Part shown: positions 7,564 to 15,208 of the stretch, piece by piece
Layout: each line of letters starts with the position of its first letter
How positions within the stretch are numbered: position 1 is the first letter of the stretch
Translations under genes and position numbers: made by a program
Origin: an uncultured Prochlorococcus sp.
GTDB lineage: Bacteria; Cyanobacteriota; Cyanobacteriia; PCC-6307; Cyanobiaceae
Length of the DNA: 43,706 nucleotides
Direction of reading: 5' to 3'
NCBI GenBank assembly: GCA_902624105.1
Contig: CACNWH010000009.1
Location: 1-43,706 of the forward strand
The notes under the pieces: model-generated
Database searches by the model: none
What the model was told of the DNA's origin: nothing
What the model saw: only the letters and a program-made list of their open reading frames with translations

Positions 7564-7589
7564 AAAAAAAAGGCCTCATGTTGAGGCCT
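7564..7589 (-). terminator. Rho-independent terminator of the porin genes
   Basis: On the minus strand the perfect 8-bp stem AGGCCTCA/TGAGGCCT (7582-7589 with 7571-7578, loop of three) is followed by a run of eight Ts. It is 26 bases after the porin stop at 7616. Confidence 0.85.
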
Positions 7590-7615: not shown

Positions 7616-8800
7616 TTAGAAACTAAATGTAGTTTTTACACCAATACCAGTTTCAGATTCAGTAGTACCCGCGTTGTCCTTACTGTAATAGAAAGGAGTT
7701 AGAGTGATACCATCTGCATAATTGTAAGTGTAAAATACTTCATACATTGTTAAAGATTCAGCATCATTCTCTGCAGATGGTTCTTTAGAACCTAACGCAG
7801 CACCAAGAGTACCATCACCTACTTCATCCCACTGTAATCCAACGAAATAATGAGATGTTTCATCATTGTTTGTACCAGTGACAGAATTATCATGGTTATT
7901 TTCAAAACCAACACTTACTGATGGGAAACTACCTAAATCTGGTGAGATGAAAGCATTTAAACCAGTACTTTGAGTTTGACCAGTAGCAGCATTATCTATG
8001 TTTGCAAATGAAACGGAGACTCCATAAGAATCACCATAATAAGAAACTTGAACACCACCTGCATCTCGTCCATTATTAGATAAGAGACCAACTTCTCCAG
8101 CTGCCATACCTTGACCCTCATAAGCGAGAGCAACGTTAAGTCCGTTATCGAAAGCGAAACTCATACCAGCTGCAGTACCAAATCCCATATCTACATTCGC
8201 GGCTGAAACACCACAATCACTGAATGTATCAGCGACGCCTCCATAAACACATGCTGTGTTATATAGATTGCTTCCAGATGCTCCATTTCCTGAGGAGAAG
8301 AATCCTGTTACTCTATCGCTTAGAGCGTTTGTATAGGTAACAGTATCAACCTGTAAATCGTTGGCTTGATTAGTTATGTCTAATTCAGGGAAAAGGCCGT
8401 TAGTTGTACCAGCATTTAGTACAACATCTAATGAATCATTTCCTGTAAAACTACTTGAAAAAGCAGCTTCAAAGTCATAAACCATTGCCAATTCCTGCTC
8501 TACAGCATTTTCACCATCAATTGTTGCTAAAGCAAAATTTGATGTGAATTCTGCAATTGTAGTTGCTGAAAAAGTATCTACATCAAAGTCATTATTACTT
8601 TGATTAGAACTAGCTCCTTCACCGCCAGCAAGAAGAGGATTCTTGCTTGAAAGAGGTTTGAAAGTATCAATAGATACTTCAACTGTATCTTGAGTGTAAT
8701 TAGTTACATCTCTAAAATTAGATTCGTTAGCATTAGCTACTACCGGAGCAAAGAGCCCAAGTGCTGCAGGTGCTAGAAGTAATTTCTGAAATAATTTCAT
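7616..8800 (-). CDS. som: Outer-membrane porin lacking an SLH domain (Som-like)
   Basis: A 394-residue outer-membrane beta-barrel protein. The signal peptide (MKLFQKLLLAPAALGLFAP, ending near ANA at 25) is nearly the same as that of the upstream porin. The rest shows alternating beta-strand patterns with acidic loops and ends in TTFSF, a C-terminal aromatic signature for barrel insertion. Unlike typical cyanobacterial porins it has no SLH domain or coiled coil after the signal peptide. I start at ATG 8800, preceded by GAGAAG; an in-frame GTG at 8812 is less likely. It begins 15 bases after the upstream porin stop, so the pair is probably one operon. Assignment to a specific Som paralogue is uncertain. 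Confidence 0.85.
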   Translation of the reverse strand: MKLFQKLLLAPAALGLFAPVVANANESNFRDVTNYTQDTVEVSIDTFKPLSSKNPLLAGGEGASSNQSNNDFDVDTFSATTIAEFTSNFALATIDGENAVEQELAMVYDFEAAFSSSFTGNDSLDVVLNAGTTNGLFPELDITNQANDLQVDTVTYTNALSDRVTGFFSSGNGASGSNLYNTACVYGGVADTFSDCGVSAANVDMGFGTAAGMSFAFDNGLNVALAYEGQGMAAGEVGLLSNNGRDAGGVQVSYYGDSYGVSVSFANIDNAATGQTQSTGLNAFISPDLGSFPSVSVGFENNHDNSVTGTNNDETSHYFVGLQWDEVGDGTLGAALGSKEPSAENDAESLTMYEVFYTYNYADGITLTPFYYSKDNAGTTESETGIGVKTTFSF

Positions 8801-8803
8801 TGT

Positions 8804-8814
8804 ACTTCTCACAA
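8804..8814 (-). promoter_or_regulatory. Candidate Yfr1 small-RNA target site at the second porin start
   Basis: The plus strand here (ACTTCTCACAA) matches the conserved Yfr1 core ACTCCTCACAC at 9 of 11 positions, so the porin mRNA is complementary to Yfr1. The site covers the GAGAAG Shine-Dalgarno of the 394-residue porin. Pairing would block ribosome binding. Confidence 0.5.
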
Positions 8815-8815
8815 T

Positions 8816-10294
8816 TTAGAACTTAAATGTAGTAGCAACTACTGCACCGAAAACATCATCGTCTGTGTTTGCAACTGAATTCACATCTGTACCTCCGAAG
8901 ATACCAGGTGTTATTTCAATTGAATCATTTGGTCTGAATGAGTAGTAAAGTTCCCAAATAAATGGATCCGTGTCATCAGTTGAACCATCTGTATGATCTG
9001 TACCTTTAATTGGTTGACCAAAAGCAACACCAACAGTGTCATCTGCTTGGAACATATCTGTCCAGTTTAAAGCGACAGAATAACCATTACCATCTTTGAA
9101 ACCATTGTCGGTGTCATAAGAAGTTGAATCAAAACCAACTGATACAGTTGGGACTGCTGAATCTAGTTCACTAGGTCTCCACCATGCTCTTAAAGCAAGT
9201 CCAGTAGTATCTACGCCTTGGTTAGCTGCAGCAGTTGAGAAGTAGTTAGCTCCACCTGTGTAACCAAGGTTTTGAGTTGTATAGGTAGCTGATACATGAT
9301 AGTTGTCAGCAGTGTATGCACCCATTATGTTGATCTTACTTCTATCAGTTTCAGTGAGAATACCATTTGTATCATCACCACCTTGAGAATTAAGAGTAAT
9401 ACTTGAAGCGAAACCGTTATCACCTACATACTTTAGACCAGCACCAACAGAAGTACTAGCACCAAAAGCAGTTCCGTGACCACCAAATCTAAATGCCTTT
9501 AAAAGCTTAGGCTTATACACGGATGGTGCAGCAGCTAACATGTAATAGTTTTCGATCCTTGGGCCGATAGTAGCAGTTACTTTATCTGAGACTGGGAAAG
9601 TATACCAAATTTTGTCAACATGAATATCATTTGTGTTATCAGTTGTTTCGTTATGGTAAGTTGCAAACTTTTGCTCAAAGTTTTCACCGTCTCCACCACC
9701 TGCTTTTAATCTTACGTATAAATTGTCATCACCAGTGAAACTAGTGTTTAAATTCATTTGATAGACATAGCTGAGAGTAACAGCTTCTGAACCAGGTGTA
9801 GTGTCTGTACCAGTTGCATATGCATCTGTGATGTTATCTACAGCACCAAGGATGAATACAGCCTTACCATCCATTGTGGTTGTATCAGAGAAAGAACCAG
9901 CTTCGAATTCATTCATTCTAGCTTCGATGCCATCAATACGACCTCTTAGTAGTGCAAGTTCGCTTGAGAATTCATCAATAAGTGTTCTTTCAATATTAGA
10001 AACTTCAGCTACGTCTCCTAAGCAAGAATTGACGATAGATGCAGCTTCAAAACGTGTTAATGCCTTATCGTTAACATTAATATCGCAACCTCTTGATTTA
10101 ACAAGATCTTTAATGGACTGATGAGCCCAATCTCCTGGCTGGATATTTAAGTAGTTGTTTGTAAATCCTGAAGATTTTGAGCTATTAGAATAGCTATTCA
10201 TATCTTCGAGATTGATATCAGTTGCTTGCGCGCCAAGTGGAGCAATCATGCTCACAGCAGCACCTGCAACCAACAGTTGTTGGAAGAGTTTCAT
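8816..10294 (-). CDS. som: Outer-membrane porin with SLH domain (Som)
   Basis: A 492-residue cyanobacterial porin of the OprB/Som type. Order: signal peptide (about 1-25), an S-layer-homology domain (about 50-95, with PGDWAHQSIKDLV and the ALTRFEAASIVN motif), a short coiled coil (about 100-135), then the beta barrel ending in ATTFKF. The SLH domain anchors such porins to the peptidoglycan-linked layer while the barrel passes small solutes and ions. It is the first gene of a two-porin operon. A candidate Yfr1 site covers its ribosome binding site and a 12-bp palindrome lies in its leader. Regulation by a small RNA is therefore likely. Confidence 0.92.
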   Translation of the reverse strand: MKLFQQLLVAGAAVSMIAPLGAQATDINLEDMNSYSNSSKSSGFTNNYLNIQPGDWAHQSIKDLVKSRGCDINVNDKALTRFEAASIVNSCLGDVAEVSNIERTLIDEFSSELALLRGRIDGIEARMNEFEAGSFSDTTTMDGKAVFILGAVDNITDAYATGTDTTPGSEAVTLSYVYQMNLNTSFTGDDNLYVRLKAGGGDGENFEQKFATYHNETTDNTNDIHVDKIWYTFPVSDKVTATIGPRIENYYMLAAAPSVYKPKLLKAFRFGGHGTAFGASTSVGAGLKYVGDNGFASSITLNSQGGDDTNGILTETDRSKINIMGAYTADNYHVSATYTTQNLGYTGGANYFSTAAANQGVDTTGLALRAWWRPSELDSAVPTVSVGFDSTSYDTDNGFKDGNGYSVALNWTDMFQADDTVGVAFGQPIKGTDHTDGSTDDTDPFIWELYYSFRPNDSIEITPGIFGGTDVNSVANTDDDVFGAVVATTFKF

Positions 10295-10298
10295 TTTA

Positions 10299-10306
10299 CC
10301 TCACAC
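10299..10306 (-). promoter_or_regulatory. Candidate Yfr1 small-RNA target site at the first porin start
   Basis: On the minus strand GTGTGAGG ends four bases before the porin ATG and contains its GAGG ribosome binding site. It is an eight-base perfect complement to CCTCACAC of the Yfr1 core. Porin mRNAs are known Yfr1 targets in Prochlorococcus MED4. Confidence 0.65.
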
Positions 10307-10313
10307 AAAATAA

Positions 10314-10325
10314 CCCTAATTAGGG
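10314..10325. repeat. 12-bp palindrome in the porin leader
   Basis: CCCTAATTAGGG is a perfect palindrome 20 bases upstream of the porin start. It could be an operator or a small leader hairpin; a TATTAT on the minus strand about 20 bases further upstream could be the -10 box. Confidence 0.45.
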
Positions 10326-10414
10326 GTACAAACATAATAATGGGATTCATTTGAAACTGCTAGAGACAAAAGATTCGTCAACATGTATATTTTTATACAG
10401 GCATTTTGCTTTAT

Positions 10415-14146: not shown

Positions 14147-15208
14147 TTAGCCATTTTGAGAAATTTTTGCATTTTCCATATTGTCAAATGCTTGACCAAT
14201 TTTCTTAAAGTCAAATCCCATAGCTCTTAAAGCATGCCATAGATGACCTTGCAAGAAGAAGAAACCAAGATAGAAATGTACATTTGCTAACCAAGCTCTT
14301 GAGCTGTAAGCACCTTCTCCTAGGTCAACAGTATCAGTAAAATAAGGAGCAAATTGGAATTCTAATTTAAGTGGAGCTCCATAAAGATCCTCCGCATAAA
14401 TTGTTGTATTTGAAGCACACCAGAAAGCAGCAACAAAAGCACAGAATGAAACACCAACAACAGAGTATGAAAGGATAGCTTCTCCACCTAGTAGACCTTT
14501 ACCTTTGAATTCAGTATATTCACCAAATTGCTTAGTAGCTATATGGAAAGCTCCACCAATAATCTCTAAGAAAGCGAGGAAAGCATGTCCTCCCATAATA
14601 TCTTCTAAGCTATCAATCTTTAGAAAATCAAACTGATGATTCCAAATAGCGGCGATATCAAGATTATAAATAACTTGTCTTGTTGAACCAATCGCTGGAT
14701 CATAAATGCCATGAATACGAGCCCACTCAACAAACATAATTGCTCCTAGACCCAAGAAGATTAAATGATGTCCAAGGATAAATGTTAATTTGTCTGGATC
14801 ATCCCACTCAAAGTCAAACTTTTGAGGCTTACTGCCTTCAGGATAATCTCCTAAATCGCCTTCAAATTTATTTGAGTGTAATAAACCGCCTGCACCAAGA
14901 ACTGCAGAGAAAATTAGGTGCAAAGTAGCTATCACAGTAATACCATATGTTTCAGTGATAACTCCATTTTCAACTCCTCCAATACCAATACCAGCAAGGT
15001 GTGGCAAACAAATTAAATTCTGGGATCCCATTGGAATTGTGGCGTCATATCGTGCTAATTCAAAAAGAGCAAAAGCACCTGCCCAAAACATCATTAATCC
15101 AGCATGGGCTGCATGAGCGGCAATAAACTTGCCCGATCTGCCTACAACGCCAGAATTTCCTGCGTACCAGTCATAGGTAACATCAGATTTTCCGTAACTT
15201 TGTAACAC
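14147..15208 (-). CDS. pcb: Chlorophyll a/b-binding light-harvesting protein, Pcb family
   Basis: A Prochlorococcus antenna protein that binds divinyl chlorophylls a and b and is related to CP43 and IsiA. The 353-residue product has about six hydrophobic helices and His pairs that act as chlorophyll ligands (AAHAAHAGLM, LGHHLIFLG, QGHLWHALRAMG). It lacks the large lumenal loop of CP43. The start is GTG. Its position directly downstream of isiB recalls isiA-isiB, so this may be an iron-stress-induced paralogue rather than the main antenna, but a terminator-like hairpin between the two suggests separate transcription. I do not assign the letter of the paralogue. Confidence 0.92.
   Translation of the reverse strand: MLQSYGKSDVTYDWYAGNSGVVGRSGKFIAAHAAHAGLMMFWAGAFALFELARYDATIPMGSQNLICLPHLAGIGIGGVENGVITETYGITVIATLHLIFSAVLGAGGLLHSNKFEGDLGDYPEGSKPQKFDFEWDDPDKLTFILGHHLIFLGLGAIMFVEWARIHGIYDPAIGSTRQVIYNLDIAAIWNHQFDFLKIDSLEDIMGGHAFLAFLEIIGGAFHIATKQFGEYTEFKGKGLLGGEAILSYSVVGVSFCAFVAAFWCASNTTIYAEDLYGAPLKLEFQFAPYFTDTVDLGEGAYSSRAWLANVHFYLGFFFLQGHLWHALRAMGFDFKKIGQAFDNMENAKISQNG

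Follow-up and report, generated by a model that had tools for sequence, protein, structure and literature searches.

Porins control the entry of nutrients in abundant ocean phototrophs. In Prochlorococcus MED4 the sRNA Yfr1 has been reported to repress the som porins PMM1119 and PMM1121 (PMC6778093; PMC3142192), as the original prediction for the present locus had noted, and for the PMM1121 leader a 4.7-fold repression in E. coli has been described (PMC6778093). In Nostoc, Yfr1 has been described to act on envelope genes (PMC6974561), and the targets of another sRNA, Yfr10, are reported to overlap with those of Yfr1 only in part (Lambrecht 2019, PMC6778093). As the control of two Prochlorococcus porins by Yfr1 has been published, the Yfr1 site at the first porin of the operon described here is part of known biology.

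The operon resembles the MED4 case in the sRNA, its core, the kind of target, and a predicted site near the start codon. It differs in that both MED4 porins are reported targets, whereas here the second porin starts 15 nt behind the stop codon of the first, and a predicted hairpin over its start stands where a conserved site would be. The conservation of the first site across the family is shown here at the sequence level. This extends the published link between sRNA and porins from MED4 to leaders of 31 of 33 other sampled genera of the family, and corrects the idea of two Yfr1 sites in one operon. The literature searches and the consulted passages of PMC6778093, PMC3142192, PMC6974561, and PMC2518516 yielded nothing on a family-wide octamer or on a hairpin at a second cistron.

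Porin genes and sRNAs of the genome

The window, a stretch of 43,706 nucleotides, belongs to a 1.10-Mb draft genome that is 67% complete, and the closest named records to its first porin are uncultured Prochlorococcus assemblies. The features of the operon are compiled in Table 1. P0002 matches the NCBIfam model NF033921 (por_somb) from residue 50 onward with 144.7 bits (cut-off 100). P0001 did not reach the por_somb cut-off, and no NCBIfam model matched it at E values up to 1, but the two proteins are relatives according to BLASTP (27% identity across part of the length), and the MKLF start of P0001 is common to other porins. An alternative in-frame GTG at 8812 would result in a protein of 398 aa. 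The view that an SLH porin and a porin with a different cell-wall anchor are encoded side by side is not supported: Pfam yielded no significant match for either protein, including no SLH domain; an SLH-like segment in P0002 was assigned by resemblance only. A PDB sequence search yielded a single weak match to a DARPin, which was disregarded. The terminator-like hairpin behind the second gene presumably marks where the operon ends.

Table 1. Features of the two-porin operon, with positions in the window.
Feature	Positions	Strand	Basis
-10-like TATTAT	10334..10339	-	by eye
Short hairpin in the leader, CCCT-AATT-AGGG, extended by weak outer pairs as far as 10329 and 10310	10314..10325	-	fold
Site 1, GTGTGAGG, for Yfr1/Yfr10, covering the first porin's ribosome-binding region	10299..10306	-	pairing and conservation
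First cistron P0002, Som-type porin, 492 aa	8816..10294	-	ORF calls, NCBIfam NF033921
Site 2, second Yfr1 site of the original prediction, TTGTGAGAAGT, 9 of 11 matches, not conserved	8804..8814	-	duplex energies, relatives
Predicted start-hiding hairpin, 8809-8803 (AGAAGTA) with 8781-8775 (TACTTCT), ATG enclosed	8775..8809	-	predicted fold
Second cistron P0001, porin-like, 394 aa with the ATG at 8800 as start	7616..8800	-	ORF calls
Intrinsic-terminator-like hairpin 3' of the second porin	7571..7589	-	sequence scan

The same genome contains a yfr1 gene (G000:C18:4620-4672; Rfam RF01116, 53.8 bits, cut-off 38), on which the original prediction depended. The RNA includes ACTCCTCACACACA. In the fold bounded by the Rfam match the core ACTCCTCACAC is unpaired between two hairpins and costs 0.04 kcal/mol to open; when the RNA is extended by 18 bases beyond this putative 5' end, CUCCU of the core becomes paired. 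In L001, as judged by eye, yfr1 lies behind an IMP-dehydrogenase-like frame and before a WCGPC thioredoxin-like frame, candidates for the guaB and trxA between which the gene would be expected. A second RNA with this core, here placed in a hairpin loop, is encoded at G000:C1:38420-38427 on the reverse strand. It shares the core with the Yfr10 family as reported (Lambrecht 2019, PMC6778093), which differs from Yfr1 in that the core is in a hairpin loop and not in a linker. We call it Yfr10-like, a name that is based on core and shape rather than on an alignment with the MED4 gene.

Yfr1 was not found in the sampled genomes, some of them incomplete, of the genera g34, g40, g62, and g48. A search of 11 genomes of g34, g40, and g62 located the exact core in 10 (it is absent from G257, which is 82% complete), and the core is also present in G148 of genus g48. 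In g34, g40, and g62 it forms the loop of a hairpin whose short stem is mostly GGAC/GTCC, and a terminator-like stem comes next (L235-L237, L242-L244, L246-L250). A comparable layout, with the core in a hairpin loop and a terminator-like stem next to it, has been reported for Yfr10 of SS120 (PMC6778093). As a side observation, the window also has two matches to Rfam IsrR, the antisense RNA of isiA (cut-off 52), at 1487-1670 on the minus strand (135.6 bits) and at 14635-14806 on the plus strand (53.8 bits).

The octamer in porin leaders

The minus strand at site 1 reads TTTTGTGTGAGGTAAAATG, and the octamer ends 4 nt upstream of the ATG at 10294-10292. The positions originally given for both candidate sites are correct, and the perfect pairing of site 1 is even one base longer than claimed, as together with base 10307 it forms nine contiguous pairs with Yfr1 of the same genome. 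The duplex energy ranks 3 among 316 ORF starts and was equalled by 4 of 2000 mononucleotide shuffles; the sum of duplex energy and leader opening cost is about -12.6 kcal/mol. The octamer occurs seven times in the 1.10-Mb draft, and site 1, the antisense of yfr1, and the antisense of the Yfr10-like gene account for one occurrence each. In the sample from the own genome none of 316 non-porin ORFs carries it, and the two carriers among 126 flanking ORFs are both porins that the filter had missed. It is very probable that Yfr1 is able to block initiation at the first porin, which would repress the gene.

The comparison across Prochlorococcus genomes that had been proposed turned out favorably for this site: The exact octamer is present in all 53 leaders of the first porin type within the genus, and also in 36 of 40 leaders of the other porin type. 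In 33 other genera it was found in 56 of 64 leaders, with at least one such leader in 31 genera; these family leaders are the top of the P0002 match list and thus not a random sample. The distance to the start codon varies from 3 to 10 nt over the three leader sets while the flanks diverge, and therefore the octamer seems to be kept for itself. Left out were three repeat genes (L062, L063, L097), two leaders at contig ends (L038, L087), a fragment (L081), and the first genes of L071 and L089, for which the filter gave no start and which both have the octamer. Set B includes the P2-type records L067 and L075, whose start is neither ATGAAACTC nor ATGAAACTTTTCC.

A search of 151 genomes of the family for GTGTGAGG followed by ATGAA within 2-12 nt yielded 300 matches, compared to 23 for the reversed pattern. 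In a locus check with 53 of the listed matches and 44 entries of the P0002 match list, 35 of the 53 were at porin starts. In 23 genomes of other families there were 44 matches versus 4 for the reversed pattern; 30 of the 44 loci were inspected, and six, in five genomes, precede a P0002-related porin. In named records the octamer is present at 51 of 60 porin starts, and the nine without it are six second cistrons and three starts with TTGTGAGG. A chance origin of site 1 was rejected on the basis of the shuffles, the reversed pattern, the conservation of the leaders, and the non-porin ORF controls.

In the four genera in which Yfr1 was not found, the octamer is retained in five of ten leaders and lost in the other five, compared to a loss in 3 of 54 leaders elsewhere. 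These genera do not represent a clean natural knock-out, because three of the four hold a Yfr10-like RNA and because some of the 54 comparison leaders are from incomplete genomes without a Yfr1 match.

A third porin group of the genus (set C, L212-L230) matches P0002 from residue 1 and contains no exact octamer in 19 leaders. Seventeen of the 19 have GTGTTGAGG, the octamer with one inserted T, while L216 has GTGTTTGAGG and L220 GTGTGTGAC, and a GGAT/ATCC hairpin is often present upstream of the variant. The median duplex energy with Yfr1 is -14.5 kcal/mol, and the pairing would require a bulge. In L066 three porins are arranged in tandem (starts at 164, 1504, and 2858), separated by about 170-200 nt, and every one of them has an octamer leader of its own.

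The start of the second porin

For site 2 the count of 9 matches of 11 is right, but the site does not stand out. Its duplex with Yfr1 (-11.5 kcal/mol) is weak, as it ranks 12 among 316 ORF starts and was equalled or surpassed by 151 of 2000 shuffles. Site 2 is partly inside a hairpin that costs 6.6 kcal/mol to open, which leaves a sum of about -4.9 kcal/mol. The operon is shared by five relatives (L293-L297), and in all of them the Yfr1 match of the second leader is poorer, with duplex energies of -6.4, -10.7 (L294, from G111), -7.8, -2.7, and -6.4 kcal/mol, respectively. The exact octamer is present in 6 of 6 first cistrons and in 0 of 6 second cistrons, and with a further operon, L300, the numbers are 7 of 7 and 0 of 7. 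Site 2 was rejected as a second Yfr1 site, as it is weak versus shuffles, costly to open, and unconserved in the relatives.

The second cistrons have another feature in common. The elements AGAAGTAC[A/T]ATG and, in codons 7-9, TTACTTCT are kept in all seven, and a predicted stem forms over the start in each of them. Opening of these starts costs 7.8-9.7 kcal/mol, compared to a maximum of 7.5 among 66 other porin starts. When the seven genes were recoded synonymously, 15, 27, 35, 6, 1, 10, and 0 of 300 draws attained the opening cost. Codons 3, 4, 7, and 8 are invariant in all seven genes, while codons 5 and 6 vary. The total folding energy is unremarkable in five of the seven (131-366 of 1000 synonymous recodings were as stable), and for the remaining two 32 and 37 of 1000 recodings were as stable. 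The stems, being invariant, yield no covariation. The seven operons are from close relatives, and therefore their agreement amounts to few independent events; the leader and the N-terminal segment may have moved as a single block.

Translational coupling via a hairpin that hides the start of the second of two close cistrons is a textbook mechanism. The operon has the same structural elements, namely, a short gap between stop and start codon (13-16 nt in the own operon and L293-L297, 19 nt in L300) and a predicted hidden second start in all seven cases. It differs from the textbook cases in that there is also an sRNA site, which only the first cistron carries, and in that the need for upstream ribosomes is here a prediction.

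In L300 (genes at 1069-2481 and from 2501 onward) the two barrels are in reverse order. The first gene has the longer N-terminus and carries the octamer, and its barrel comes nearest to those of second cistrons (48% to the one of L297). The second gene has a short N-terminus and the P2-type barrel of first cistrons (65% to L297); it is devoid of the octamer and keeps the start hairpin. This comparison of sequences suggests that the barrels have been exchanged between porin genes. A tentative explanation, for which the odds seem slightly unfavorable, is that the second gene swapped its own Yfr1 site for a start-hiding hairpin when the genes were joined into an operon, so that octamer and hairpin follow position and not barrel. 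If true, a single sRNA site would now set both porins together.

It seems fairly probable to us that the elements act jointly, i.e., that one transcript is blocked at the first porin by Yfr1 or the Yfr10-like RNA and that the second porin follows by translational coupling. The transcript would begin some 33 nt upstream of the first porin and reach to the terminator behind the second, and its leader would present a small hairpin, the octamer, and the ATG in this order. Yfr1, and probably also the Yfr10-like RNA, would bind to the octamer and prevent ribosome entry. Ribosomes that finish the first porin would open the hairpin over the second start, and a block of the first porin by Yfr1 would then also lower the second, which has no site of its own. 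The second porin may in this way be linked to the first through a coupled start, and the operon would be a natural example of a second gene whose control by an sRNA may have passed to translational coupling.

Start-hiding hairpins can also merely reduce translation, and the coupling is a prediction. Yfr1 might act on the first porin only, and the hairpin might fix a constant low output of the second, without being opened by upstream ribosomes; the effect of Yfr1 on the second porin would then be weak or would occur via mRNA decay only. The gaps of all seven operons are, however, short enough for coupling, and we regard this alternative as unlikely, albeit worth keeping in mind. The coordinated, graded repression of both porins by a strong and a weak Yfr1 site, as originally predicted, finds a point in its favor in the duplexes of the second leader in the own genome and in G111, but the low values in the four other relatives, the many shuffles that are as good, and the cost of opening the hairpin make it improbable.

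An even more doubtful possibility, which we consider very improbable, is that the octamer is a plain strong ribosome-binding site or part of a shared ancestral leader and has not been retained for Yfr1. Its GAGG doubles as the Shine-Dalgarno sequence and pairs with the 16S tail, and the MKLF porins are of common ancestry. However, the GTGT half, which is not complementary to the 16S tail, is equally invariant, and the variable spacing and diverging flanks are also at odds with such an origin. The experiments on Yfr1 reported for MED4 argue in the same direction (PMC6778093).

The leader hairpin and putative promoter region of the first porin

Just upstream of site 1 the first-porin leader contains a short hairpin, and many family leaders have hairpins of other sequence at this place. 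A promoter scan of the leader found no consensus promoter; judging from the TATTAT sequence, the mRNA may start near 10327, at the hairpin. In the genus, 39 of 53 leaders have a TAnnnT box at 5 of 6 or better, compared to 21 of 53 shuffled ones, and 38 of these 39 boxes are located 29-37 nt upstream of the octamer. The signal is weak in other genera (13 of 56 versus 8 shuffled), and there is none in P1-type leaders (23 of 36 versus 23 shuffled). A phage search with the leader yielded no match.

Because a T-run often follows the hairpin, a function as terminator was considered. This was rejected, as several GC-richer leaders (such as L175, L177, and L179) are devoid of a T-run, and the genus leaders also have the -10-like box just upstream. 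It is more likely a hairpin at the 5' end of the mRNA. The alignment of the leaders with MAFFT left the stems unaligned and was kept out of the pair counts. The length of the stem is not unusual, the mean chance of an equal stem being 0.49, 0.35, and 0.55 in the first-type genus set, the other genera, and the P1-type set, respectively. Compared to shuffles, the energies are low in the first-type genus set (mean z -2.04) and in the other genera (-2.19), whereas the P1-type set shows no such effect (-0.32). When the hairpin halves were swapped, there was hardly any loss of stability in the genus set (from -7.12 to -6.61 kcal/mol), while in the other genera it dropped from -8.67 to -4.66 kcal/mol.
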